15,271 nt of DNA, taken from positions 1 through 15,271 of the forward strand of contig CAMYJJ010000045.1 of assembly GCA_947258735.1 (NCBI GenBank), read 5' to 3'. Positions 364-15,199 of the stretch are shown piece by piece. The notes beneath the pieces are model-generated. The model did not search any database and was not told the origin of the DNA. It saw nothing but the letters and a program-made list of their open reading frames with translations. Source of the DNA: Thermodesulfovibrionia bacterium. Lineage in GTDB: Bacteria > Nitrospirota > Thermodesulfovibrionia > UBA6902. The stretch's first letter is position 1. Each line of letters begins with the position of its first letter. The position numbers and the translations under genes were made by a program.

Positions 364-392
364 TTGAATTATTAAAGAGTTAATGTTTTAAT
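364..392 (+). promoter_or_regulatory. Candidate sigma70 promoter of the RyR operon
   Basis: TTGAAT (364-369), a 17-base spacer and TTTAAT (387-392) give a reasonable housekeeping -35/-10 pair. Transcription would start near base 399, about 20 bases ahead of the ATG at 419. The genes downstream follow closely on the same strand with no obvious terminator, so this would serve the whole group up to about 8390. Read by eye only; the A/T richness makes chance matches likely. Confidence 0.35.
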
Positions 393-418
393 ATCCAAAA
401 ACATGCCCCGGAGGTAGA

Positions 419-670
419 ATGAATAATATTGATAATGAAACACTCGAGCGACTTGCAGAAGCCGCACACAAGGTATGGATGGATGGCAAGCTTCGAGATG
501 GCTGGAAGTATGGGCCTGAAACAGATAAAGACAACAAGATTCACAGCTGTCTTGTGCCTTATGATCAGTTAAGTGAGTCGGACAAGGATTCGGATCGTGA
601 TATGGTCCGGGGTATTCCTGATATTTTGGCCGCTGCCGGCTACAAAATGGTTAAGTCAGACGAAAAGTAA
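419..670 (+). CDS. Small stand-alone RyR-domain protein
   Basis: An 83-residue protein that is essentially one RyR (ryanodine-receptor repeat) domain. The diagnostic run is LAEAAHKVWMDGKLRDGWKY (residues 11-30), followed by the conserved 'LVPYDQLSESDKDSDRDMV' block and a final helix ending AAGYKM. In animals the repeat lies in the ryanodine receptor. In bacteria, single RyR domains occur beside TIR, SLOG and ATPase genes and have been proposed, in comparative-genomic work on nucleotide-based conflict systems, to bind nucleotide-type ligands. The start is supported by GGAGGT at 410-415, rather close to the ATG. No signal peptide or membrane segment is present, so it should be cytosolic. It is the first gene of the operon and probably a ligand-sensing or adaptor subunit for the ATPase encoded next; that role is inferred. 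Confidence 0.85.
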   Translation: MNNIDNETLERLAEAAHKVWMDGKLRDGWKYGPETDKDNKIHSCLVPYDQLSESDKDSDRDMVRGIPDILAAAGYKMVKSDEK

Positions 671-719
671 TAGTCTCATTTAGATTCCAATATAACTGTG
701 TGTCGACTGCTGTATGAAA

Positions 720-727
720 AAGGGGAG
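720..727 (+). promoter_or_regulatory. Ribosome binding site that decides the AAA+ gene start
   Basis: AAGGGGAG lies four bases ahead of the ATG at 732. The in-frame ATG at 714 overlaps this element and has no Shine-Dalgarno of its own, so translation most likely begins at 732 (MAKKTASKKK). Confidence 0.6.
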
Positions 728-731
728 TAAT

Positions 732-2810
732 ATGGCAAAAAAAACTGCTTCTAAAAAGAAAACATCAAAAAGTCCTGGTAAAAGTACTAATTCGAATCCG
801 AGTATATTCGTCACAGGTGATGCGAGCATAGACAGGTTTATCTACCTTGAAGATGTTCAGGATAAGCCTGCAAATCTCCGGGATGCCTGGGTTGATGCGA
901 AACGTTTTTGGAGAGTTAATCTGGATGGTGGTTCCGGGAATCTCATTCAGTATTTAAAAGCTGCCGGGATAAATGCTGCTGATCCCTGCCCCAAACCTCA
1001 TGACATTGCAGAATCTATTTATATTTTGACACGGGGAAGAGAAAAAAAAGACCAGAAATGGTGCATTGGCCAGGCTATAACAGCTGGTGAACGTGAATAT
1101 CCATCGGGTGAATTAGAAAAATGTTCATATGAAATAGCATCTGACAGCACACCAGCGGTCATTCTTGATTTTAATCAGGGCTGGTTATTAAAGAACAAGG
1201 ATGCAGTTAAGAGTTTTCTTAGAAACAGACAGTATATTGTCAGAACACACGATCCTTTGATAGAAAATTGGAAGAACGTTCGAAAACAGGGGAAAAAGAA
1301 AGGTATATGGTTTTCTCCTATACAGGATATGGCAAATGGTTCACTCTGGTTCCCGGGAAACTGGGAAAATATGCGTGAGAGGTTACTTGTTTATCTTCAG
1401 ACAGATAACACAATCTGGCAGAAAGGAAAATGGCAGCAGTATGTTGTAATTCAAATATCATATGATGGTGTTTTTGTAGTGGGGCCAGGTATTGCTGATA
1501 AGGGGAAATTATTAATTTACAAAGGTGATCAACCTGGCTCTTTTTTAAGGAAAGGATATGGGACTGTAGTAGCAGGCGGGATAGTTTTTGTTTATTCATT
1601 GACTAAGCCACTGTTTTCATCCACTACACTTAATAAGGATAATATTCTTGATTCTGCAAAAGCGGGGCTTGCACGAATTCGTACAGTGGTAAAGGAAGGG
1701 TACGTTGGGCCTAAGGATAAAGAAGACAACTGGAAACAACCTACAGCAACAAATCTTCCGGTAACGGTCTTAGAACATGCTGATATAAAAGATATTATTT
1801 TATATAATAAACCTCCCATTGCAAATACTAAAACAGCTTGCGAAATAATATGCTGCAGTGATAATGATCTTCGTGAAAAGACTGTCTTTAGTCTTGGCAA
1901 CCTGTTAACATCATCTCCTGATTATGCTGACACACTGCTTCGACTCACCAGTAGAGTAGAAGCCCATGTTAATAATGGTAAGGATATGCTTTCTTTTTCA
2001 ATCTTTGGCGGTCCTGGATCCGGGAAGTCTTTTATTGCTAAACAGATAGCTAAAGTCGTTGATAATCCGTCGAAAAGTAAGTTTGAATTCCTGACATATA
2101 ATATCTCCCAGTTTGATGATAGTTCACGTCTTTTATATGCCTTCAAAGAGATTCAGACAGCCAGTACTCAAGGGAAAATACCATTTGTTCTATGGGATGA
2201 ATTTGAAACTTCTTATAGAGGGGAAAAAGCCGGCTGGATATCTTCTTTTCTCATGCCTATGCAGGATGCTGAATTTTTTGACGGCATGAGTAATCGTGGT
2301 CTTGGTAAATGTATTTTTGTATTTATCGGGGGCACATTCAAGGATGACCATGAGTTTAATAAATGGGCATCATCTGATGAGGGGAAGAATTTAAAGGGGC
2401 CGGATTTTCACAGCAGGCTGAGCAGCAGCCTGACTGTTCCTTCGGTAGTCCTTTCTCCTGATTCGAAAAATTCGAGCGACCCTGCATTGCTTGTAAGGGC
2501 AGTGCTGATCAGGGCTTTTCTAAAAAAACAGGAAAAGCTCGAATCAATATCTCAGGATGTTCTTGCCTTCCTGTTGCATGTTCCTTTAGAACATGGCGTG
2601 CGTAGTCTGGAGAAAATAATCTCCGCAAGTGAATTGAGCAAGACAACCTTTTTTGATTCAATTCACCTGCCATCCCTTGACGTGCTTCAATTGCATGTCG
2701 ATGAATCAAAATTAGAAAAGAGAAAGTCTATTAATAGCTATCTCAATTATATTAAACTTCATTACTACCAGGATATGCCTCTTGAGCTTGAGTGGAGCAA
2801 GAAGGATTAA
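732..2810 (+). CDS. PfkB/ribokinase-like domain fused to AAA+ ATPase
   Basis: A 692-residue two-domain protein, numbered here from the ATG at 732. A lysine/serine-rich basic tail (1-25) leads into a region resembling the ribokinase/PfkB fold: a first strand VTGDASID (27-34), then DGGSGN (65-70), matching the N-terminal PfkB signature. The usual C-terminal GAGD catalytic motif is replaced by KGYGTVVAGG (about 276-285), so kinase activity is doubtful and the domain may only bind a ligand. The C-terminal half is a AAA+ module: Walker A GGPGSGKS (426-433, bases 2007-2030), Walker B FVLWDE (about 485-490), a sensor-1-like strand FVFIGG, a candidate arginine finger in DFHSRL, and a sensor-2 lid GVRSLEKI. 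It is probably a remodelling or signal-gated ATPase working with the RyR protein. The gap to the preceding gene is 61 bases and the next gene starts 21 bases downstream. The AAA+ call is firm; the PfkB call is moderate; the function is inferred. Confidence 0.8.
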   Translation: MAKKTASKKKTSKSPGKSTNSNPSIFVTGDASIDRFIYLEDVQDKPANLRDAWVDAKRFWRVNLDGGSGNLIQYLKAAGINAADPCPKPHDIAESIYILTRGREKKDQKWCIGQAITAGEREYPSGELEKCSYEIASDSTPAVILDFNQGWLLKNKDAVKSFLRNRQYIVRTHDPLIENWKNVRKQGKKKGIWFSPIQDMANGSLWFPGNWENMRERLLVYLQTDNTIWQKGKWQQYVVIQISYDGVFVVGPGIADKGKLLIYKGDQPGSFLRKGYGTVVAGGIVFVYSLTKPLFSSTTLNKDNILDSAKAGLARIRTVVKEGYVGPKDKEDNWKQPTATNLPVTVLEHADIKDIILYNKPPIANTKTACEIICCSDNDLREKTVFSLGNLLTSSPDYADTLLRLTSRVEAHVNNGKDMLSFSIFGGPGSGKSFIAKQIAKVVDNPSKSKFEFLTYNISQFDDSSRLLYAFKEIQTASTQGKIPFVLWDEFETSYRGEKAGWISSFLMPMQDAEFFDGMSNRGLGKCIFVFIGGTFKDDHEFNKWASSDEGKNLKGPDFHSRLSSSLTVPSVVLSPDSKNSSDPALLVRAVLIRAFLKKQEKLESISQDVLAFLLHVPLEHGVRSLEKIISASELSKTTFFDSIHLPSLDVLQLHVDESKLEKRKSINSYLNYIKLHYYQDMPLELEWSKKD

Positions 2811-2831
2811 CATCTTGAAATATTGAGTCTT

Positions 2832-4576
2832 ATGAGGGATATTCTCGCCATACCATTCCGAATTACAATCGGCGTCACTGGTCACCGTACACTGGAAAAT
2901 GTTGATGAGTTGCGTCCGACGATCCATAAGGTTATCGAAGATATCTTTAAGAAAAATCCAGAGGCAAACACAGCAAACACACGGAAATAAAACTGTCTGT
3001 ATTGTCTCCGCTTGCGGAAGGTGCTGACACGCTTGTTGCGAAAGAAGTGTTTGCATATGATAACGACTCAATGCTCAAGGTTGTTCTTCCGCTGAATAAG
3101 TCAGATTACCTTGAGGATTTTAAGTCTGGAGAGTCAAAAGAAGAATTCAGACAATTACTGTCACAGGCAAGATATTCACTTACATTGCGGGAAAGGGATT
3201 TGAAAGACGACTATCCTTTGGCAATGCTTGGCGATGCAAGAAGGAATGCTTATGAAGATGTTGGTAAGTTTGTTGTTGAACGCTGCGATATATTAATTGC
3301 AATATGGGACGGTGAGCCCTCCAGGAGCAGGGCAGAATGCGGAACTGCAGATATTGTACATTATGCAGAGGAAGTTAATTGTCCCCATTACATTATAAAT
3401 CCAGCGAACCCATCTCAATATAAATGTATAAAGGGTGAGGGAATATTAAAGGACTTATTGAATAAAGTAGATGCATTTAACAAACATATAATCAAAGCCC
3501 CACCACAGGAAGAGTATATTCAGAATGAATATGATGAGCTTTTTTCAGAGGAGAAAATGCCGGAAGCAAAGAATATCCCGGAGGTAGTTAAAACCCTTAT
3601 CAAAGAAAAACTCATTCCATACTATACTGTAGCATCGTCTGTAGCTAAAGAGTGCCAGAACACGCACCACAAGACAGGTAAGAAGGCCTTCTGGCTGGCT
3701 TTCCTGGCAGTTGTCATTGTTGGTTTTGGCATCATTTTTCTTCATACTCCTTCTTATATATTTGGTATTGAGTTCGTTATTCTGGGCTATATCTTTTTCA
3801 CAATATGGAGGGCAGACAGGAAGAGGGTACACAAGAACTGGATAGAACACCGCTTTCTTGCTGAGCGTATTCGTTCCGGTTTGTTTATGGCAGCATCCGG
3901 AGTGGAGATATCACCTTTTTTTATCAGAAAACGTGTAGTACATACTGAAGACTCCAAGACGGCTACCATTACAGAACGTTTTTTCAGATGGAGTATTTCT
4001 TTATTGAGGAGACAGAAGTTAACCCCCAGGGATTCAAGCAGCTGGATGCTCCTTGCCTTCAAGGAGATATGGGGGGAGATGCCTAAACTGGCACGGTGCA
4101 GTGAGGATACATGTCAGGAAGTAGGAGATTATTTGACAAAGGCATGGATCGAAGAGCAGATCAATTATCATACAGAAAAATATAAGGATAACCAATTTAA
4201 AGATATTATCGATGAAATGAAGGGTGAACTAATATTTTTCATTGCATTTGGTCTCGCCCTTGCCCATTTCATTATTCCTATGATCGATGAACAGTTCCAT
4301 CACTCCGTGTCGGCCAACATACTGACTCTTGCCACTCTGATATTCCCACCGCTTGCAGCTACGATTGAATCGATCAGGTTTCATAGTGAATACAAAAGGC
4401 TTTATGTCAGAAGCAGGAAGCTGACGGTAGAGTTGAATGAACTGAAGGGCTCCTTCAGGCTACTTTCACCCGGCAAGCTTGAATATCTTGTGCGGAAGAC
4501 AGAGAAGATCATGCTTAATGAATCTAGAGAGTGGTTAGCGCTTATGAGTCCCTTGGAATTGCATAAGGTTGTTTAA
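2832..4576 (+). pseudogene. SLOG nucleotide-binding domain with two SLATT-type membrane modules; one frameshift
   Basis: The frame from the ATG at 2832 reads MRDILAIPFRITIGVTGHRT and runs into a stop near 2990. The rest (LSVLSPLAEGADTLVA onward) continues in the -1 frame to 4576. Restoring one A in the A-run 2952-2956 gives a continuous protein of about 581 residues. The N-terminal part is a SLOG-type Rossmann domain: GVTGHR, LSPLAEGAD, and DILIAIWDGEPS followed by GTADIVHYA, a family thought to bind or make nucleotide-derived signals. Then comes a helix pair across the membrane (about 3689-3742 and 3758-3808) with the following helix WIEHRFLAERIRSGLF, which is the SLATT pattern. A second helix pair (about 4226-4287 and 4310-4375) is followed by another long charged helix. 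SLATT domains are proposed pore-forming effectors in immunity systems. The gene lies between the AAA+ ATPase and the STAND gene with short gaps. The frameshift may be real or a homopolymer sequencing error; all other residues look conserved. Confidence 0.75.
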
Positions 4577-4622
4577 TAATAAAATTGTACGGTTTTGAAA
4601 ATATCCCATACGGTATTAACTA

Positions 4623-7600
4623 ATGAAAAAGGACAATCTACCAAATCGCTGGAGGATTGTAAAAGTTTTTATCTCCTCTACTTTCCGCGACATGCATGCG
4701 GAGCGGGATCAGCTGGTTAGATTTGTTTTCCCTGAACTGAAGGAAAAGTGTCGCAAGAGGAAAGTTCATCTTATTGATGTAGATCTTCGGTGGGGAGTTT
4801 CAGAGGAAGATGCCGAAGGTGGTAAGGCACTGGATATATGTCTGGATGAGATTGACGCATGCAGGCCTTATTTTCTCGGTTTATTAGGGCATCGGTATGG
4901 TTTTACACCAGAAGGACAGGAACATTCCATTACTGCCCAAGAGATTTTTCATGGGGTTTTCATAATGATGTTCCAAATCAGGTTGTTGATATTAGAAAGA
5001 TTATTGATGGGAAATTAGAGGGTGAAACTCTCTCTGATGAACAGCTGAACTGTTTGATTCAATGTTATCCTTATGATCCAGAGAAGAATAAGTATCTTCT
5101 GAAAGAAGGTGTGACGAATGAAGACCTAAAGATCATTCGAACTGTATTTAAAAGATATTCAGTTTACCAGCAAGAGCGCAGTTTTTTCTTTTTCCGTACA
5201 GAGGAATTGTCTCGAGAATTAGCTGGAGATAAAATAGCTGACTTCTTTGAGACTAATGATACTAACAGGAAGAGACTTGAAGAACTAAACGATGCTATCA
5301 AAGATGATAAATATGGATTGCGGTGTTTTGAATACGATCACCTTGAACCGGTTGATGAAAAAGATGAAACGGCATTTAGCAGAAAGGTCGCAAATGCTCT
5401 CTGGTCAAAAATTGAAGCGGAAATTGAAGAGAAGTTAGAAGTTTCAGAAGAAAAAGACTGGCTTGAGGAAGAAGCAGAGTTTCATGAGCTTTTCATGGCT
5501 GACCGTACTCAGAGGTTTGTTGGCAGGAAAGATATACTAGATAAAATGCACTCCTTTTGTAGGGGCGATTGGCCGATCGCCCAAGCTGAGGGCGTTTCGC
5601 AATACGTCCCTATGCCAAATGTCATGGTAATTTCAGGGGAACCGGGATGTGGGAAATCTGCACTATTTGCACGTTTTACTGAAGAAATAATGCATTAGCA
5701 TCCGGATTGGATGATAATTCCACATTTTGTTGGCGCATCTCCTGTATCAACAAACCTTAGACAAACACTCCTGAGTTTTTGCTCTCAATTAAACAGAAGG
5801 ATTAAATCAACAGAAAAAGTGCCAGAAGATATCAAAGAACTTATAAAGATATTTCCTGCATTACTGGATAATGCTGCCGAACAAAAGAAGGTTTTACTTA
5901 TACTTGACGCTGCCAATCAGTTTGAGGATGCAGACAACGCCCATAATATGCAATGGCTGCCCCAGGATTTGCCTATAAATGTCAAGGTGGTTATCAGCAC
6001 CTTGGCAGGAAAGGTTCATGACAGTCTGTTGGCTAGGCGTGACGCTCCTTCGGTTGAACAGGTGCATGGTCTGGACGAAGAGGAGATAAAAGAGCTCGTC
6101 CATGAATACCTCCGGGAAATTAGGCATGAATTCCCCGGCCCAAAGGTTGAGGATGCTTTTTTTACTAAAATCAGGAAAGGAAATCCTCTCTATATCCTGG
6201 TGGCTCTTGAAGAGTTGCGTATATTTGGCCAGTTCAAAGCATTGGCAGACAGGATAAACCAACTGCCTGATGATGTGCCGGCACTTTTTGGCCAGGTGTT
6301 AAAGCGGATTGAGTCGGATTTCAACCCTGACCTTGTGCAAGACTGCATGTCCTATATCGCCTGCGGTAGGCAGGGTATGACCGGCGAGGAACTTCAGTCT
6401 CTTCTCTATTGCCATGCACCCCGACATGACTCGGAATTGTGTCCCGACAAATTACCGGATATGCTCTGGGCACGGCTTTTTCGAGCCTTTGGTCCGTATC
6501 TCTTTGAGCGATCCGGAGTCATTGATTTTTTCCATGGTCAGCTCAAGGAAGCAGTGGGTAAACGGTATTTGAAAGACAAGGAAGACCGAAATAACTGTCA
6601 TCAAATCATTGGTGATTATTTTGATACACGATGGCAGGAGCCGTATCACAGAGCAATAGATGAGTTGCCTCATCAAAGGAACAAAGCAACTGATTTCAAG
6701 GGGCTTGAAGATGTGCTCACTGATCTTGAGTTCATCGAGGCCAAATGTGCCGCCGGGATGACTTATGGGCTTATTAATGATTATCTTGTCGCTTTGGCTG
6801 ATGCGGATGCATCTATGCCTGAATACAGACGAATTGAGACATTCAAGGCTTTTTCCCAGGGGCAGTCCCATATTCTAAATCTGTATCCTGAGCTTACTTT
6901 TCAGCAGGCGATCAATCAACCGGATGTTTCATTACCGTTCCAGGCCGCACAACAGTTGCTTGGTGCCAGTAAGATCGAGCGGCCATGGGTTGAATGGAAG
7001 AATAAACCTCAACACAAATCACCATGCATAATGACCCTGGCCGGTCATTCAAAATGGGTAAACTTCTGCGCCTATTCACCGGATGGCAGCCGCATCGTCT
7101 CGGCTTCCGAGGATAATACCCTCAAGGTGTGGGATGCTGAAACTGGCGCGGAAGTAGCCACCTTGGCTGGTCATTCAGAGCAGGTAGCTTCCTGCGCCTT
7201 TTCACCGGATGGCAGCCGTATCGTTTCGGTTTCCGAGGACAATACCCTCAAGGTTTGGGACGTTGTTACAGGTGCGAAAATCACCACCTTGGCCGGTCAT
7301 TCACAATCGGTAGAATCCTGCGATTATTCACCGAGTGGCAGCCGTATCGTCTCGGCTTCCGTGGACAACATCCTCAAAGTTTGGGACGCTGGTACAGGTG
7401 CGAAAATCACCACCCTGGCCGGTCATTCAGGCTCGGTAACATCCTGCGCCTATTCACCGGATGGCAGCCGCATCGTCTCGGCTTCCGAGGATAATACCCT
7501 CAAGGTGTGGGACGCTGAAACTGGCGCGGAAATCGCCACCCTGGCCGGTCATTCAAACGGGGTAACATCTTGTGCATATTCGCCGGATGGCAGCCGCATC

Positions 7601-8392
7601 GTCTCGGCTTCCGAGGACAAAACCCTCAAGGTGTGGGACGCTGAAACAGGTTCGGAAATCACAACCCTGACCGGTCATTCATACATTGTGCATTCCTGTG
7701 CCTATTCGCCGGATGGCAGTCGTATCGTCTCGGCTTCCTGGGACAATACCCTCAAGCTGTGGGATGCTGGAACAGGTGCGAAAATCGCCACCTTGGCCGG
7801 TCATTTAAACTTGGGAATATCCAGTGCCTATTTGCCGGATAACAACCGTATCGTCTCGGCTTCCTATGACAATATTCTCAAGCTGTGGGACGCTGAAACA
7901 GGCGCAATAATTGCTGCGTTTTCTGGGAATGGAAGCTTATCTACTGTTAATTTCTCAACATCAGGACAAATAATAGCCGGTGACAAAGGAGGAACAATTT
8001 ATTTTCTTACCTTAAAAAACATCAATTTCTCACCACCATTTACCACACCAGAAAAACTCTACCGTGACAAGGAAATCAGCGCCCTATGTAAATGGTGCGG
8101 CACCCGCTTTAACCCAAAAGACAAAATCATCGACGCCATCCGTTCCATAAACAGCCACCTCTCACCAGATCAGTCTCCCTGCACATCACTCCCGCAAGAA
8201 GCCTGGGATGAACCAATACTCAACTCCGAGTGCCCCCACTGCCACAAACCACTCAAGTTGAATCCGTTTCTGGTGGAAGGCAAAAAAAAAGTGATCTCGA
8301 ACGCTGGAGACTCGAAAATTGTGGAGTTAATGTACCGAAATATTTCAAACTCAACAACAGTATATCATCAACAGGAAGTTAAATATCTTTGA
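4623..8392 (+). pseudogene. DUF4062 - STAND P-loop NTPase - WD40 - zinc ribbon protein, broken by frameshift and amber stop
   Basis: About 1256 residues if restored. The N-terminus is a DUF4062 domain (KVFISSTFRDMHAERDQL, VDLRWGV, YFLGLLGHRYG). The frame shifts at the T-run 4957-4960: HGV continues as FHNDVPNQVVDIRK in the -1 frame. The P-loop GEPGCGKS is at 5636-5659 and the Walker B region is ILDAANQFEDADNA. Between them a TAG at 5696-5698 interrupts otherwise continuous homology (EEIMH-stop-HPDWMIIPHFVGASP). Seven WD40 repeats follow (7034-7915), then a degenerate eighth and a zinc ribbon with CKWC and CPHC pairs (about 8087-8250). The architecture is NLR-like: DUF4062 with NACHT-type ATPase and WD40 resembles animal TEP1/NWD1. 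The sensor would be the propeller and the NTPase the oligomerising switch. The last roughly 30 codons (after about 8285) may come from the adjoining insertion element. It is paralogous to the gene at 12089-15199. Family call firm; whether it is functional is uncertain. Confidence 0.8.
7034..7915 (+). repeat. Array of seven WD40 repeats, exact 126-bp period
   Basis: Units begin with TLAGHS or a close variant at 7034, 7160, 7286, 7412, 7538, 7664 and 7790, exactly 126 bases (42 residues) apart. Each carries the pattern SPDGSRIVSAS-DNTLKVWDA-TGA. Seven units fit a closed beta-propeller. Units 1 and 4 are almost identical in DNA over about 80 bases (from TATTCACCGGATGGC on), which points to recent duplication or gene conversion. 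An eighth, decayed unit (AFSGNGSLS onward) follows. Confidence 0.9.
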
Positions 8393-9464
8393 ATTATCAG
8401 AACAGCTTGGCAATATAAGTGAGGCCTGCCGGAGACTGGGTGTAAGTCGAAGTCATTACTACGATATCAAGACAGCCTTGCAGGAAGAAGGTGTGTCTGG
8501 ATTGCTGGAGAAAGCCCGGAACAAGCCCCGGATAGGCAACCGAGTCGCCCCTGAGATCGAGGAGCGAGTCCTGAGTTATTCACTGGAAAACCCCATGCAT
8601 GGTCAGACCCGTACAGCCAATGAGCTGAAGATCGAGGGAGTGATTGTCAGTCCTGGTGGTATTCGCAGTATATGGCTGAGGCATGAACTTGAGAGAAGAT
8701 CTCTTCGTCTAAAACGGCTTGAGAAATAAGCTGCTGAAGAAGGACATGTACTAACAGAGAGTCAAGTGCAGGCACTGGAGCAGGCCAAAGAAGAGAAGGA
8801 AGCTCACGGCGAGATAGAGACCCATCATCCCGGCTTTTTGTTTGGGCAGGATACGTTCTATGTGGGTTATATCAAAGGCATAGGCAAGATATACCAGCAG
8901 ACAGATATTGATACCTACTCCAATACTGGCTTTGCCAAAGTATACACAGAGAAGACGGCATTGACAGCAGCCGACTTCATGAACGACAAAGTGCTGCCAT
9001 TCTTCGACTCTCACAACCTGCCGCTACTGAGGGTTCTGACAGATCGGGGCACCGAGTACTGCGGTGTCAGGGAGCAGCATCCTTACCAGTTGTTTCTGTA
9101 CCTCAATGACATTGACCACAGCAGAACCAAAGCCCGGCATCCACAGACCAATGGTTGCACAGAGCGGTTCAACCAGACCATCTTAGATGAGTTCTATCAG
9201 GTTGCTTTCAGGAAAAAGATATACACTACTTTAGATGATATCCAGACTGATCTTGATGAGTTTCTCCTGAGATACAACACACGGAGAACCAATCAGGGTA
9301 AGCACTGCAAGGGCAGAACTCCGATGGATACTTTCACCCATGGACTTGAACTTTGCAGAACTTATATTCATGATAGAAAGGAGGATGATTTAGAAGCGGC
9401 GCAAACAACTTAATCGGAAGGCCGATTGTACACGCAATTAGTGACTATCGCATCTGAAATTAAC
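8320..9464 (+). mobile_element. Remnant IS481-family insertion sequence
   Basis: Set by the transposase reading frame; the ends are uncertain. A weak terminal match is visible: the left side (from 8320) reads TGTGGAGTTAAT and the right side (9459-9470), read on the other strand, gives TACCCAGTTAAT, sharing AGTTAAT in the same place. No target-site duplication was found, and a perfect inverted repeat starts exactly at the proposed right edge, so that end may have been altered. The element lies at the 3' end of the STAND-WD40 gene and probably replaced its original stop. Confidence 0.45.
8330..9413 (+). pseudogene. IS481-family DDE transposase with in-frame stop
   Basis: From about 8343 one frame reads QYIINRKLNIFELSEQLGNI, a helix-turn-helix (ISEACRRLGVSRSHYYDIK), then PGGIRSIWLRHELERR, all typical of IS481 transposases. 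A TAA at 8727-8729 interrupts it (KRLEK-stop-AAEEGHVLTESQ). After it the rve/DDE core continues in the same frame: first Asp in GQDTFYVG, second Asp in LTDRGTEY, Glu in NGCTERFNQT, then YNTRRTNQGK near the end. All three catalytic residues are present. No in-frame ATG precedes the helix-turn-helix after the stop at 8328; the ATG at 8330 is in another frame, suggesting a second small lesion at the 5' end. The element is therefore probably immobile by itself. Confidence 0.8.
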
Positions 9465-9526
9465 TGGGTAGTGTCGCGTCTACGCATTACGCATTTTCCT
9501 GAAGAACGTAGACGCGACACTACCCA
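9465..9526. repeat. Perfect 20-bp inverted repeat with 22-bp loop (possible MITE)
   Basis: The left arm TGGGTAGTGTCGCGTCTACG (9465-9484) is exactly complementary to 9507-9526, with the spacer 9485-9506. There is no T-run, so it is not a classical terminator. It starts where the IS481 remnant seems to end and stops inside the first bases of a duplicated segment. It could be a small MITE, fused transposon ends or a recombination-generated hairpin. The outer nine bases of the right arm recur exactly 200 bases further on (9717-9725). Confidence 0.65.
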
Positions 9527-9725
9527 TTTATAATATGGTAAAATCCTTTCCTCTCACTCTGGTCTGTTCTCTTTATGTTCATAACGGATCCAGTAAAAAG
9601 TTTTCCAGGATGAGTTGTGTTCCGAGTAATCATAGCTGACATATTCCTTGTAGTGTCTAATGCGAACACGCACCGGGCAGGCTTCTCGATGAATCCTAAT
9701 GGTTCTCATATTATTTACACTACCC
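9523..9725. repeat. 203-bp direct repeat, copy A
   Basis: Aligns without gaps to 11210-11412 (constant offset 1687) with 11 mismatches by my count, about 95 percent identity. Homology begins at CCCATTTATAATATGG and ends at the CCC near 9725. The copies flank the DUF4143 ATPase gene. Copy A is also bounded by the 11-base direct repeat ACACTACCCAT at 9517-9527 and 9717-9727. Confidence 0.85.
9554..9722 (-). pseudogene. 3' fragment of the small unknown gene found whole at 11241-11618
   Basis: Read on the minus strand this copy encodes the last 55 or so residues of the neighbouring intact gene: RTIRIHREACPVRVRIRHYK, then EYVSYDYSEHNSSWKTFYW, ending at a TGA (9554-9556). Differences are few and conservative (for example F to I, E to K, A to I, Q to P) and the frame is open, so the loss of the 5' part looks fairly recent. 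Nothing upstream on the minus strand supplies a start. Confidence 0.7.
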
Positions 9726-10020: not shown

Positions 10021-11196
10021 ATGTTACGAGTACGGTATCTGACATCCCGCATTGTTGAAGACCTGAAGGATAAAATGGTTTTTGTCGGTGGTCCGCGGCA
10101 GGTCGGGAAAACTACGCTCTGTTGTAATCTTGTTGCAGCCCACTATAAACAGTCAGCATCATTTAACTGGGACAACAGGTCAGACAGAAAAAGCATAATG
10201 ACATCTTCTTGGCCCGGCGATGCTGAATTGCTCATCTTTGATGAACTCCATAAATACCGCAAGTGGAAGAGCTTCATTAAAGGAGAGTATGACAAACTGA
10301 AGGATGTGTACAAGTTTATCGTCACCGGCAGTGCAAGGCTTGATCTGTTCAGAAGAGGTGGCGATTCCTTGCAGGGGAGATATCATTATTACAGACTGCA
10401 CCCCTTTACCCTGTCCGAGATACATGGAAAACCTTCAAACATAACCCCAGGTGAAGAACTCCTTTTCAGTGAAAGGAGTGTGCCTCATTCTGACATTGAG
10501 GCGTTGGAAATCTTCGGGGGGTTTCCTGAACCATTTATTAAGCAGAACAAAAGGCACCTGAGGCGATGGCAAAACGAGAAGATTGAACGCTTGTTCAGGG
10601 AAGACATACTGGATACCCAATCTATAAGGGATGTAGGGAACATGAAACTGCTTGGAGACATTCTGCCTTCAAAGGTCGGATCTCTTCTTTCACTTAACTC
10701 AATCAGGGAGGACCTTGAAGTCAGTTTCAGAGCGGTCTCCAACTGGATGAATATTCTCGAGGCCTTTTATTACCATTTCAGAATATATCCCTATACATCA
10801 AAGAAAATCAGATCCCTTAAAAAAGAGCCGAAACTTTATCTTTGGGACTGGTCCGAGGTTGAAGATGAAGCGGCCCGCTTTGAAAATCTCGTTGCTTCCC
10901 ATCTGCTTAAGCTCTGCCACTTTTTAAATGATTATGAGGGGTATAAAGTTGAACTTAACTTTCTGCGGGATGTTGACAAACGTGAGGTTGACTTCCTTGT
11001 TACGATCGATGGAAGACCCTGGTTTGCAGTGGAAGTAAAACTTAATGACACAGCGTTATCTCCGCATATCCTTTACTTCAAAGACAGGTTGAACATCCCG
11101 TATCTATATCAGATTGTCAGGACACCAGATATAGACAGGCTGGAAAAAGGTGTTAGAATAATCTCAGCGGGTAAATTTTTATCGGGACTGATTTAA
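10021..11196 (+). CDS. AAA_14 / DUF4143 family ATPase
   Basis: An intact 391-residue member of a common prokaryotic family of ATPases of unclear role, often found in mobile regions. The N-terminal AAA_14 domain shows KMVFVGGPRQVGKTTL with Walker A at 24-31, Walker B LLIFDE at 70-75, a sensor strand FIVTGSARLD (about 99-108) and the family block YYRLHPFTLSEI. The C-terminal DUF4143 domain has a PD-(D/E)XK-like pattern: Asp 324 in EVDFLV and Glu-Val-Lys at 338-340 in WFAVEVKL, so it may be a nuclease-type fold. The start matches the usual family N-terminus (a short helix, then KMVFVGGPRQ). It is flanked by two copies of a 203-bp repeat. It converges with the minus-strand gene at 11241, leaving 44 bases between stops. 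It is probably regulated through the palindrome upstream. Family assignment firm; cellular role unknown. Confidence 0.88.
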   Translation: MLRVRYLTSRIVEDLKDKMVFVGGPRQVGKTTLCCNLVAAHYKQSASFNWDNRSDRKSIMTSSWPGDAELLIFDELHKYRKWKSFIKGEYDKLKDVYKFIVTGSARLDLFRRGGDSLQGRYHYYRLHPFTLSEIHGKPSNITPGEELLFSERSVPHSDIEALEIFGGFPEPFIKQNKRHLRRWQNEKIERLFREDILDTQSIRDVGNMKLLGDILPSKVGSLLSLNSIREDLEVSFRAVSNWMNILEAFYYHFRIYPYTSKKIRSLKKEPKLYLWDWSEVEDEAARFENLVASHLLKLCHFLNDYEGYKVELNFLRDVDKREVDFLVTIDGRPWFAVEVKLNDTALSPHILYFKDRLNIPYLYQIVRTPDIDRLEKGVRIISAGKFLSGLI

Positions 11197-11209
11197 GCTC
11201 AAGTTTAAT

Positions 11210-11412
11210 CCCATTTATAATATGGTAAAATCCTTTCCGTTCACTCTTGTCTGTTCTCTTTATGTTCATAACGGGCCCAGTAAAAAGTTTTCCAGGATGA
11301 GTTGTGTTCCGAGTAATCATAGCTAACATATTCCTCGTAGTGTCTAAAGCGAACACGCACCGGGCAGGCTTCTCGATGAATCCTAATGGTTCTCACATTA
11401 TTTACATTGCCC
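11210..11412. repeat. 203-bp direct repeat, copy B
   Basis: The counterpart of 9523-9725. It comprises the last 57 or so codons of the intact minus-strand gene plus about 31 bases beyond its stop. Because this copy is part of a complete gene, B is the likely source and A the derived fragment. Confidence 0.85.
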
Positions 11413-11618
11413 GATTCTATACCGAATGCAACCTCGACCCATTCATCCTGCCAGACAATTTTCACCTTGTTGCCATTGCTGTCAACAATGGTGTCAATTT
11501 CTATCCCTCTTCTTGTGTACTTATTGCTGCCATTCCGCCCATAATACATACCGGTGACGTCAATAAAATCAGCCTCTATTATCTTCACATCTTCCTTTTC
11601 TTCTTTTTGTTCCTTCAT
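11241..11618 (-). CDS. Small conserved-looking protein of unknown function
   Basis: 125 residues, not recognised. The N-terminus is strongly charged (MKEQKEEKEDVKIIEADFID). Later it reads IDTIVDSNGNKVKIVWQDEW, VRTIRIHREACPVRV and a tyrosine-rich tail (RHYEEYVSYDYSEHNSS). The alternation of hydrophobic and polar residues suggests a small beta-rich, cytosolic protein; there is no signal peptide or membrane helix. It is a real gene: its ATG is preceded by a near-perfect Shine-Dalgarno, and a second, truncated copy of its 3' part keeps an open frame with conservative changes. It converges on the DUF4143 ATPase. A link to that ATPase is suggested only by the flanking duplication. Confidence 0.75.
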   Translation of the reverse strand: MKEQKEEKEDVKIIEADFIDVTGMYYGRNGSNKYTRRGIEIDTIVDSNGNKVKIVWQDEWVEVAFGIESGNVNNVRTIRIHREACPVRVRFRHYEEYVSYDYSEHNSSWKTFYWARYEHKENRQE

Positions 11619-11630
11619 TGATCACCTCCT
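11619..11630 (-). promoter_or_regulatory. Strong Shine-Dalgarno of the 125-codon gene
   Basis: On the minus strand AGGAGGTGATCA directly precedes the ATG. This is close to the full anti-Shine-Dalgarno complement, so the start at 11618 is secure and strong translation is expected. Confidence 0.8.
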
Positions 11631-11642
11631 CAACCTATTGCA

Positions 11643-11687
11643 ATTCTAACAGAAAAACCGGAAAGCCCACAATGTTTATATATTGTG
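11643..11687 (-). promoter_or_regulatory. Candidate promoter and operator of the 125-codon gene
   Basis: On the minus strand: TTGTGG (11667-11672), an 18-base spacer, and TAGAAT (11643-11648) with an extended-type TG in front. An inverted repeat CACAAT (11668-11673) / ATTGTG (11682-11687) with an 8-base gap overlaps the -35 element and could be a repressor site. Confidence 0.35.
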
Positions 11688-11689
11688 TT

Positions 11690-12088
11690 TCTATATATTT
11701 TTCATGAAGTATGAGCTAATGCGCAAAAGTAAAATTAATAAACATTGACATAAGCGAAAAACTGAGAATCCGCAATGCCAGGAAATACTGATGATTTATT
11801 TTGGTAACGAATAAACTCCCGTCCGACTGAAGATATATAACCATAATAAACGATTTCGATTTTTGTCTTTTATAGAAGATTTTAATTTATAATGAGTGAC
11901 GTTACGTGCTGTTGCGGCTATAGATGCAAAAAATGTTACGTTTTTCTTAAGAAACAGTTGAAATTCAAGGAGTAATGATACCATCTCCACTCATCAACAC
12001 TTACCAATAAAAAATGGGAGAATCACTGGTTGAAAGTGAGTATAAAATAAGATAAGTATAAGATTCATTTAATTTTATATTCCTACAT
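11690..12088. other. A/T-rich intergenic stretch, nothing recognised
   Basis: About 400 bases between the start of the 125-codon gene and the end of the STAND-TPR gene. The open frame at 11796-11990 (minus) lacks a ribosome site and family features. No convincing terminator hairpin with a T-run was seen for the STAND-TPR gene. It may be remnant or regulatory sequence. Confidence 0.5.
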
Positions 12089-15000
12089 TCACTTCCAAAA
12101 CTTCCACCAGAACTTTTTCTTTTTTTTCAACAGAGCATCTAAATTATCTTTTACAGTCTGAGTAGAAGGATTTTCCCTGCCAAGCACCTTTTCAAATATC
12201 GCAAGTGCTCTGCGGTAAAGCGGCTCTGCCCCTTCATAGTCCCTTTTGTCAGTAAGCGATGAGGCAAGGTTGTTTAGGCTTCTTGCCGTATCAGGATGCT
12301 CCCTGCCAAGCACCTTTTCCCTTATCTCAAGTGCCCTGCGGTGAAGCGGCTCTGCCCCTTCATAGTCCCTTTTGTCAGTAAGCAATGAGGCAAGGTTGCC
12401 TATGCTTGTTGCCGTATCAGGATGCTCCCTGCCAAGCACCTTTTCCTTTATCTTAAGTGCCCTACGAATAAGAGGCTCTGCCCCTTCATAGTCCTTTTTG
12501 TCAGTAAGCGATGAGGCAAGGTTGTTTAGGCTTCTTGCCGTATCAGGATGCTCCCTGCCAAGCACCTTTTCACTTATCTCAAGTGCCCTGCGGTGAAGCG
12601 GCTCTGCCCCTTCATAGTCACCTTTGCTATTAAGTACTCCGGCCAAGTTATTTAGGCTATTTGCCGTATCAGGATGGTCCCTGCCAAGCATCTTTTCACT
12701 TATCTCAATTGCCCTGCGAAAAAGCGGCTCTGCCCCTTCATAGTCCCCTGTGCTCCTAAGCAATAAGGCAAGGTTGTTTATGCTTCCTGCCGTATCAGGA
12801 TGGTCCCTGCCGAGCACCTTTTCCCTTATCTCAAGTGACCTGCGGAAAAGCGGCTCTGCCCCTTCATAGTCACCTTTGCTATAAAGCAATAAGGCAAGGC
12901 TGTTTATGTTCTGTGCCGTAGAAGAATGCTCCCTGCCAAGCACCTTTTCAAATATCGCAAGTGTCCTGCGAAAAAGCGGCTCTGCCCCTTCATATCTTGC
13001 ATTAAGGTCCAGGAAAAACGCTGTTGCATTCAGTAGAAAAGCAAGATCACTCTCTTCCTTATCCCCCTTTTCATATTCCTCAATCATCTCGTTATGGGCA
13101 CTTACCATATCAAATATACTCTCAAGTCTCAGCCAGTAACCCATATGTTCATATTGCTTTTTGTCTGTACCGAGATTCAAAAACATCTTTGCATCCGTGA
13201 TGCAGTCCTTTAATCTCTCCCAACTCCCTGACTCGCAAAGCTGCCAAGGAAGTTCATCAGCCTTCCTTTCAGTCAGTTCCTTTTGCTTGTCAAAATAATC
13301 GGCTATCTTCAAATGATATTCCTTCTTTGCATCCTCACCCCTTAAATACCTGTCCTCTACGGCCTTTCTGAGAAAATCATGTGAAAAACTGAACAATCCT
13401 GACTGGCTGACCAGTGATTCCTCTGCTGCCAGATAAAGAGGTGACCAGATGGCATTTGGAAGCGGATCGTCTGCTGATCGAAGCAATTGCAGAAGCTCTC
13501 TCTCTGTAAGCCCCCTTCGTGATGCCCAGACCAGCGACATCGCATCCTTCACCAAATTAGTTCGCTCTTTTTCGTAATCCCTTTCATACCGCTCAAGTAT
13601 TCTCTCGTACAGGTCATCTACTGTTTCTGCTTCAAGGTAATGTCTTATCCTCTCTTTAAGCGTGAAATGCTCGCCGTGATATCTCAGCTCATCAAGCAGT
13701 GCCTTTAGATACAGAGGATTATTTGTGTGTTCGGCATTTGCTATTAGCTCAACATGCTCTTTCTCCAGTGTCTTGGTAAATCTCTGCAGGTACTCGGGGA
13801 TCAGTCTCATTTTCTCATCGATAGTTAACAGCTCTACTTTCATTGACGGCAGGTTTCGCCTGTTTAAGGCATCAAGGCTTTTGCCCGGAAGTGTTGAGAG
13901 GATAACCTTTATATTCGGTGGAAAATGAACGGGGAGCCAGCCAAGCTCACGGGCATTGTCTTTGTCATCAAGCTGGTTCAGGGCATCAAGGATAAGAACA
14001 AGTTTCCCTTTTGCTGATGCTTTAGCAATCCATTGGGGAAATGCCTCTACGACTTTCTTGGGGTCAGTGGGTATTTCATCGGAAAATCCCCCCTCACCCC
14101 CCTTTGCTAAAGGGGGGATACTACCATGGTCCTTGGTCTCAGGTTCATAACGCTCCTGTATCTCCTCCATGATTTGCCTGAGTAGACGAACATAGTCTGC
14201 ACTGTCAGAAGTACTACCGATAAAGTACGTGATAATAAATTCATCCGGATTACTCTGCCGATATCGTGCTACCCAGTTGGCAATCAATGCCGATTTGCCA
14301 GACCCCGACTCTCCAAGAATCACAAGAGGGGGATCTTCACTTTTCACATGATCATCAAGCCTCTTAAAATACTCGTCCCTCCCTATATAGACCTTTCTCC
14401 GCGCCTCTGCAAATGCCTCATGGTCTAGCCGCTCCCGCTCAAGGGCAGAGGGGACTTCTTCTTTGGGGAATCTTTCACTAATAGCTGTCCACAGGTCCTC
14501 AAGCACCTGCTGTCCCAATTCCTCCGCGTTAGGGAAATTCATACGCACAGGTACTGGATAGTTCTTCTCATGTTTAAGGATTTCTTCTTTGAGTTTCTTA
14601 AGCTTATCCAGCGATTCATCTTCCTCTGGCTTATACCCTTCTTCATTTAAAATTTCTTTTTCAATCTGTTCGGATATTTGCGGATCACGGAAGTAAAAGA
14701 AGGAAACTCCCTCCATTTCAGGACTCTCGAGCACCCCATGGATTATCTCAAGCTCTGTTATGCTCTTCTCCCTGTGTTGCTTAAGCCACGGCTGTATTTC
14801 CTCCAGCTTATCATCCGCCTCCTCCGGCACCCATCCGTATCGGGCTCCGAGGACTCCGATGAAATAAGGGCTGCAGCGTTCTATTTCAGCCAGACATATC
14901 GGCAGCACCTTGCCCTCAGCCTTCTGCTCATCAGTAACACCCCACCTGAGGTCAACTTCGCTAAATTCAATGCCCCGTTCCCTGCACAGTTTCCTCAGTT

Positions 15001-15199
15001 CCGGGAATGTAAACTTCACAAGGTATTCCCTTTCATGCTTCATATCCCGGAAAGTGGAGGATACGAAGACACGCACCTCGCGCCTCTTTGACTGAAATTG
15101 TATCGGGCTTGTGTTATCCTCTGCGGAAGAAGAGAGTTCGCTGAATTTTGAAGATGATGACCTGTCTTTACCGCCGAAAAGTCGTTTCCAGAAGCTCAT
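12089..15199 (-). CDS. DUF4062 - STAND P-loop NTPase - TPR protein
   Basis: An intact 1036-residue NLR-like protein. A short basic/aromatic N-terminus (MSFWKRLFGGK) and a serine-rich linker lead to DUF4062 (about 42-155: VRVFVSSTFRDMKHEREYL, VDLRWGV, YFIGVLGARYGW). A charged helical stretch (175-215) is followed by the NTPase: P-loop GESGSGKS (296-303), Walker B region VLILDALNQLDDKD (401-414), then WLPVHFPPNIKVILSTLPGK. A helical and winged-helix region leads to kinesin-light-chain-type TPRs from about residue 720 to the end, which terminates in KKKKKFWWKFWK. The same DUF4062 and NTPase blocks occur in the broken gene at 4623-8392, which has WD40 instead. DUF4062-NACHT-TPR resembles animal nephrocystin-3. 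The likely role is signal sensing by the TPRs and NTPase-driven oligomerisation, in defence or signalling; this is inferred. The start at 15199 has GAGGAAATC just ahead. A repeat-derived insert lies at residues 358-371. Confidence 0.88.
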   Translation of the reverse strand: MSFWKRLFGGKDRSSSSKFSELSSSAEDNTSPIQFQSKRREVRVFVSSTFRDMKHEREYLVKFTFPELRKLCRERGIEFSEVDLRWGVTDEQKAEGKVLPICLAEIERCSPYFIGVLGARYGWVPEEADDKLEEIQPWLKQHREKSITELEIIHGVLESPEMEGVSFFYFRDPQISEQIEKEILNEEGYKPEEDESLDKLKKLKEEILKHEKNYPVPVRMNFPNAEELGQQVLEDLWTAISERFPKEEVPSALERERLDHEAFAEARRKVYIGRDEYFKRLDDHVKSEDPPLVILGESGSGKSALIANWVARYRQSNPDEFIITYFIGSTSDSADYVRLLRQIMEEIQERYEPETKDHGSIPPLAKGGEGGFSDEIPTDPKKVVEAFPQWIAKASAKGKLVLILDALNQLDDKDNARELGWLPVHFPPNIKVILSTLPGKSLDALNRRNLPSMKVELLTIDEKMRLIPEYLQRFTKTLEKEHVELIANAEHTNNPLYLKALLDELRYHGEHFTLKERIRHYLEAETVDDLYERILERYERDYEKERTNLVKDAMSLVWASRRGLTERELLQLLRSADDPLPNAIWSPLYLAAEESLVSQSGLFSFSHDFLRKAVEDRYLRGEDAKKEYHLKIADYFDKQKELTERKADELPWQLCESGSWERLKDCITDAKMFLNLGTDKKQYEHMGYWLRLESIFDMVSAHNEMIEEYEKGDKEESDLAFLLNATAFFLDLNARYEGAEPLFRRTLAIFEKVLGREHSSTAQNINSLALLLYSKGDYEGAEPLFRRSLEIREKVLGRDHPDTAGSINNLALLLRSTGDYEGAEPLFRRAIEISEKMLGRDHPDTANSLNNLAGVLNSKGDYEGAEPLHRRALEISEKVLGREHPDTARSLNNLASSLTDKKDYEGAEPLIRRALKIKEKVLGREHPDTATSIGNLASLLTDKRDYEGAEPLHRRALEIREKVLGREHPDTARSLNNLASSLTDKRDYEGAEPLYRRALAIFEKVLGRENPSTQTVKDNLDALLKKKKKFWWKFWK
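12130..13050 (-). repeat. TPR (kinesin-light-chain type) array, exact 126-bp period
   Basis: The EKVLGR block recurs with its DNA landmark (CAAGCACCTTTTC or a close variant on the + strand) at 12181, 12307, 12433, 12559, 12685, 12811 and 12937, always 126 bases (42 residues) apart. Consensus: LNNLASSLTDKRDYEGAEPL followed by HRRALEIREKVLGREHPDTA. The last unit is partial. The unit starting near 12242 resembles the one near 12494 more than the one between them, suggesting duplication of a 252-bp pair. Confidence 0.88.
14085..14119. repeat. In-frame palindromic G/C-run repeat inside the STAND-TPR gene
   Basis: CCCCCCTTT (14097-14105) pairs perfectly with AAAGGGGGG (14109-14117) across the loop GCT, with a further TCCCCCCTCA on one side. 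Read by the minus-strand gene it encodes IPPLAKGGEGGFS, a peptide I recognise as the translation of a dispersed intergenic repeat in several environmental bacterial lineages. It lies between Walker A and Walker B without breaking the frame. Confidence 0.7.

Follow-up and report, generated by a model that had tools for sequence, protein, structure and literature searches.

The window analyzed here, a 15,271-nucleotide (nt) stretch of contig CAMYJJ010000045.1 from a Thermodesulfovibrionia bacterium, carries four adjacent + strand genes at positions 364..8392, separated by intergenic gaps of 61, 21 and 46 nt. Coordinates and domain matches confirmed the order given in the initial annotation, namely RyR, PfkB-AAA+, SLOG-SLATT and DUF4062-STAND-WD40. 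Genes 1 and 2 are open frames: the first (419..670) encodes an intact single-domain RyR protein (PF02026) of 83 amino acids (aa), and the second (732..2810) an intact 692-aa protein uniting a pseudo-ribokinase of the PfkB fold with an AAA+ ATPase, with its ATG at 732 in a reading frame open from 714. Gene 3 (2832-4576) begins with an N-terminal SLOG piece (2832..2990) that, by comparison with the relative P0076, runs through a frame break into a stop; a different frame resumes at 3002 and encodes the rest of SLOG and two SLATT-like transmembrane-helix pairs (3002..4576). Gene 4 (4623-8392) comprises a DUF4062 (TIR-like NADase) domain (4623..5018; Pfam E 7.1e-18) with frame breaks in its 3' part, the middle of the STAND protein as far as the P-loop (4859..5698), and the remaining STAND part with a WD40 propeller (5711..8392); one frameshift lies inside 4859-5018, and an in-frame TAG at 5696-5698 terminates the middle piece. 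Gene 3 has an unbroken relative in P0076 (578 aa, 78%) and gene 4 a longer one in P0150 (1230 aa, 63%; annotated as partial), and the operon copy in the window is decayed or mis-sequenced. The window holds 25 promoter-like sites (20.2 in shuffles, standard deviation (SD) 5.1) and 13 terminator-like sites (7.7, SD 3.0), from which no boundary was drawn, and Rfam and tRNA searches of it gave no matches.

The RyR domain scored 68.9 bits against PF02026 (E 4.5e-19), exceeding the curated cut-off of 27.4. Phage PF02026 proteins, i.e., RyDEP and its homologues, cleave or sequester 2'/3' cyclic ADP-ribose (cADPR), with H75, W78, H100 and D117 as the ligand/catalytic residues of RyDEP; RyDEP cleaved the signal, and among eight phage homologues tested, six showed binding and none cleavage (preprint PMC13232231). 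Residues H17, W20, H42 and D59 of the window RyR have the same spacing at a constant offset of 58, an equivalence drawn from the published positions. All four residues are retained in 43 of 95 aligned RyR domains (window included), and within this alignment the first repeat of tandem RyR pairs usually reads H-Y/F-x-N and the second HWHD. In alignment, tryptophans of animal RyR chains stand opposite W20; by numbering they would be Trp880/Trp994 of PMC12627627 if the inferred numbering offset is right. On its four residues, the window RyR is predicted to be a RyDEP-like cADPR binder.

The pseudo-ribokinase part of the gene 2 product has a PfkB/ribokinase fold. At the GAGD column, which we take to be the conserved catalytic Asp motif of PfkB/ribokinase, the window carries T, and Asp is found in one of 29 aligned sequences; this column was located by motif pattern, as profile alignment of the window PfkB part to six PfkB proteins with hhalign yielded none that was usable. 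Gene 3 has a YpsA-type SLOG fold. Its SLATT portion, double and fused to SLOG, scored 30.1 bits against NCBIfam SLATT_1, below the cut-off of 41, and several gene 3 relatives carry precomputed PF18181; the SLOG-SLATT profile found nothing better than E 1.5 among PDB sequences. A 3'cADPR pocket is present in the SLOG domain of ThsA (PMC11204291).

The DUF4062 domain of gene 4 aligned with the TIR domain of human TEP1 (11gz) at E 3.8e-24, and it is followed by a P-loop and then WD40. Since gene 4 is split, its pieces matched the NACHT/STAND P-loop domain only below the cut-off; PF05729/PF24883 is present in many gene 4 relatives. DUF4062 has been described as a TIR-like NADase (preprint PMC13174449). 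The window also contains an intact second DUF4062-STAND gene (12089-15199, − strand) with TPR repeats, an NPHP3-like layout and a retained TEP1-type Glu motif, whose product aligns across the TEP1 TEMEV motif (E 5.4e-26). With chain residue 1 taken as 894, which agrees with R908, R954 and R976, the second Glu of TEMEV would be TEP1 E1008. At the corresponding position gene 4 reads SITAQE by eye; its Glu lies outside the 11gz alignment and was positioned via the second STAND protein and by eye. The initial annotation had seen no more than a sensor in the STAND gene; the TEP1 alignment and PMC13174449 point to its DUF4062 head as a likely NADase or signal source.

To survey relatives, an alignment of 29 gene 2 sequences was used as query, which retrieved 60 loci in public genomes and one in viral contigs, where a lone AAA+-part relative was found (n = 1, 30% identity). 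Two plasmid records gave partial matches, one of them annotated as an RyR domain protein. In three phylum samples, matches occurred in 38/395, 12/297 and 5/301 genomes, RyR-less relatives included. The classified set comprised 76 PfkB/AAA+ loci (L001-L061 and 15 longer stretches), and profiles were built from the loci. Two further groups of short loci, 40 (L062-L101) and 18 (L108-L125), lay outside this set: RyR-bearing ones were refetched at greater length or were already included, L134 was refetched too, and RyR-less and weak ones were dropped. L069-L091 except L072, common in one sampled phylum, are relatives that lack RyR but have a related AAA+ domain, their lengths mostly near 755 aa. 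Not all of the 76 loci are independent: L048/L049 are near-copies, and L012/L013, L029/L032/L033, L129-L131 and several Tannerella-type loci form close sets. Loci were called RyR-type when RyR was fused or within 1.5 kb, so that RyR presence is true by definition, and partners were counted when fused or within 5 kb. Across 43 genomes (about 142 Mb), 50 places were counted for DUF4062 and 49 for TIR_2, which sets the chance level at about 1.1% per locus.

RyR-type loci made up 53 of the 76; in 52 of these the AAA+ protein itself carries RyR, and in six it carries SLOG. A NADase gene was found near 33 of the 53 (DUF4062 at 15, TIR at 19), against the 1.1% expected; SLOG was near 28, and a SLATT or RCK channel gene near 17. 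Where 5 kb was available on both sides (n = 23), the corresponding counts were 16, 13 and 11. Non-RyR-type loci had a NADase in 3/23, SLOG in 3/23 and a channel gene in 0/23, and the three partnered ones (L004, L057 and L134) look like members whose RyR is farther away or unseen. RyR, SLOG and NADase occurred jointly at 16 RyR-type loci, with a channel gene in addition at six, and seven had no partner. Of the 38 NADase genes, 31 were same-strand (median distance 692 nt) and 24 of these downstream, whereas among 271 unlabelled neighbours 137 were same-strand (p 4e-4). The linkage counts, set against the density expectation, and the same-strand bias ruled out chance adjacency. Membership of the window genes in a module is well supported. 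The initial annotation had joined all four genes into one conflict system, a view that rare co-occurrence would undermine. For the module in general this objection fails, since its parts recur jointly in unrelated genomes and with fusions, but the exact set is rare: SLOG-SLATT together with DUF4062 within 5 kb was found at only two of the 53 loci (L028 and L030), owing to the swapping of parts.

Individual loci illustrate this modularity. L133 encodes on one strand PfkB-AAA+-RyR2, SLOG, TrkA_N-RyR2, TIR-WD40, RyR and DUF4062-STAND; L028 has PfkB-AAA+-RyR2, SLOG-SLATT and DUF4062-STAND-WD40; L102 has PfkB-AAA+-RyR2, SLOG and DUF4062-STAND; and in L012 a PfkB-AAA+-RyR2 protein with fused SLOG adjoins TIR-WD40. 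As in the window, a lone RyR gene stands upstream of the AAA+ gene in L007, L008, L015 and L037, 23 to 27 nt away. P0054, judged by eye, fuses PfkB-AAA+ to SLOG. P0141 combines TrkA_N and SLOG, and its RyR-like stretches were recognized solely by eye. In two pairs, P0002/P0076 (4822) and P0033/P0105 (11348), a gene 2 relative and a gene 3 relative agree in contig size and source. Among the matches listed for the window's close kin, contig sizes compared by eye gave no linked pair of gene 2 and gene 4 relatives; a size of 9302 is common to one relative of gene 3 and one of gene 4, whose sources differ. TrkA_N(RCK)-RyR proteins are encoded in L007 (2581-4236), L027 (11778-13769), L104 (4290-6101) and L133 (6182-7921), those of L007 and L027 showing two hydrophobic stretches each in a simple hydropathy scan, and look like RyR-gated bacterial channels. 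In L132, a RelA/SpoT + RyR protein (10895-13429, −) with an LSDAT match below cut-off adjoins a PfkB-AAA+-RyR gene, so that RyR is linked there to a further enzyme that makes nucleotides.

NADase type was mapped as a label onto a quick AAA+ tree whose 59 rows comprise the 53 RyR-type loci, five other loci and the window; L007 and L133, where TIR and DUF4062 are both present, were excluded from the labels. The label changes at least 10 times on the tree, five changes being forced by starred branches, and it differs among the closely related L029, L032 and L033. Shuffled labels equalled the observed value in 90 to 106 of 500 trials, i.e., the TIR/DUF4062 labels are unclustered. This fits the swapping of equivalent parts; taken alone, it would also fit random neighbours, an account that the gene densities and the strand bias speak against. 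On a starred branch the window joins L001-L004, of which only L004 also lies near SLOG and DUF4062-STAND.

On balance, we lean toward reading the window as a broken copy of a recurring conflict (defense) system run by an NAD-derived signal. Because the set contains a NADase as well as RyR domains, it is most simply explained by a signalling circuit of the ADP-ribose (ADPR) type ending at a membrane protein. The data show the parts, their repeated linkage and fusions, the conserved residues and the exchange of TIR for DUF4062; we infer the identity of the signal, its flow from NADase to channel and the role in phage defense. The initial annotation had proposed a nucleotide-type ligand; it had overlooked the reported roles of DUF4062 (TIR-like NADase) and of RyR domains (cADPR binding or cleavage) (PMC13174449, PMC13232231), and its AAA+ gating and membrane disruption are hypothetical steps. 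In intact relatives, an NLR-like STAND protein with a WD40 or TPR sensor bears the TIR-like DUF4062 NADase, or a TIR protein takes its place. Upon infection, the NADase protein would oligomerize and convert NAD+ to ADP-ribose or cyclic ADPR, to be bound by RyR domains and the YpsA-type SLOG, RyR perhaps also hydrolyzing it. The pseudo-ribokinase AAA+ protein could couple signal binding to ATP-driven remodelling, whereupon a membrane protein with SLOG or RyR (SLOG-SLATT in the window, TrkA_N/RCK-RyR elsewhere) would open and halt the infected cell. Several findings weigh against this circuit. Of four human proteins tested only TEP1 was active, and NWD1, NWD2 and NPHP3 were without NADase activity (PMC13174449). 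The Glu motif was found in 15 of 20 DUF4062 matches from the relatives' loci; it is absent from the stretch searched in L029, L033 and L128, and the other two motif-negative matches, L007 and L127, are incomplete.

An arrangement of two systems side by side, in which the RyR/PfkB-AAA+/SLOG-SLATT module merely shares a defense island with an independent DUF4062-STAND NADase of the Swarozyc or NLR abortive-infection kind, appears rather unlikely to us. DUF4062 proteins are indeed frequent in defense islands (PMC13174449), the window itself holds the second DUF4062-STAND gene at 12089-15199, and among 120 listed of the 197 gene 4 relatives only two contig sizes (71682 and 89964) equal those of PfkB/AAA+-locus contigs by eye. 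Such independence, however, fits poorly with the same-strand bias and short distances of the NADase genes, with linkage repeated across unrelated genomes, and with the interchange of TIR and DUF4062, as among L029, L032 and L033.

RyR could instead act as an off-switch that hydrolyzes or soaks up cyclic ADPR like phage RyDEP, quieting a toxic NADase-channel system while the AAA+ protein resets the complex. The RyDEP His/Asp dyad in the window RyR, the retention of the four residues in many rows and the cleavage by RyDEP and binding by most phage homologues described above are in line with this, but RyR fusions to TrkA_N (RCK) membrane proteins are better suited to a sensor and the first repeats of tandem pairs mostly carry Asn instead of Asp, and we regard the proposal as improbable. 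A housekeeping or stress operon for NAD/ADPR sensing and ion control, outside immunity, is in our view very improbable: ribokinase, RCK and SLOG folds serve metabolism too, and no defense assay was found, yet the patchy distribution in the three phylum samples, the STAND and TIR partners, and defense-type or mobile neighbours (e.g., the Cas3-like gene of L127 and the window's own transposase) speak for a conflict role.

If the defense circuit is real, it would be a recurring family in which a channel and ADPR readers of two types work with an NADase of NLR-like build, and would give host RyR domains a role. The disputed link between cADPR and the ryanodine receptor would become testable in simple bacterial proteins, and TEP1-like proteins would gain a bacterial context with defined partners. 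A tentative and rather doubtful extension is that RyR domains of bacterial hosts serve as receptors for the cyclic ADPR that TIR or DUF4062 NADases produce and, together with SLOG, gate membrane channels. The circuit would then consist of the parts known from animal cADPR-RyR and ADPR-TRPM2 signalling and might be a source of both, and phage RyDEP proteins would be pieces stolen from it.

Among known systems, Thoeris (ThsB TIR with ThsA SIR2-SLOG or TM-macro) likewise has a TIR-type NADase partner and reads a signal of the ADPR type through a SLOG or membrane effector; in contrast, the membrane protein of the module is SLOG-SLATT or TrkA_N-RyR, and RyR and pseudo-ribokinase/AAA+ proteins are added. 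PADLOC Thoeris models matched none of nine window open reading frames (ORFs) at E 0.1, and SIR2 or macro Pfam domains were found neither in seven window ORFs nor among the best 25 matches for two more; Thoeris identity was accordingly rejected. Swarozyc, a DUF4062 antiphage NADase, is reported as a single protein with an HTH/winged portal-binding domain (PMC13174449), whereas the window DUF4062 sits on STAND-WD40 in a multi-gene set; the set shares the DUF4062 domain and, in a comparison that included no search for the portal-binding domain, is not filed as Swarozyc. RyDEP is a phage anti-defense protein (PMC13232231), while the module RyR, for all its shared family and residue spacing, is host-side and occurs in fusion or linkage with AAA+ proteins, membrane proteins and NADases. 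A SLOG sensor with a SLATT pore is likewise predicted in nucleotide-signal systems (PMC7159879, PMC9503650), but RyR has no occurrence in the main text of either paper, and the SLATT of the window is double and joined to SLOG. TEP1, NWD1 and NPHP3 (DUF4062-NACHT-WD40/TPR) share the layout of gene 4 and of gene 12089-15199, although they are eukaryotic and gene 4 is bacterial. PADLOC and NCBIfam hold no model naming the module parts as one system; TIR parts of the loci match their Thoeris and Argonaute-linked TIR models. Among the papers listed by literature searches that did not extend to most subscription titles, Burroughs 2015 included, none described the gene set, and no publication placing RyR together with SLATT and SLOG was found. 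SLOG/SLATT systems are reportedly predicted in Burroughs 2015. The module is recurring and apparently unnamed, in keeping with the initial annotation, which knew no name for the combination.

Downstream of gene 4 lies a split transposase (8478-9413, +), whose rve integrase core is in 8766-9413; an inverted repeat of 24 nt (96%; 9461-9484/9507-9530) comes after it. A 203-nt direct repeat (95%; 9523-9725 and 11210-11412) stands on both sides of an AAA_14/DUF4143 ATPase gene (10021-11196), a PADLOC PDC-S01 match that in this setting resembles a cassette.
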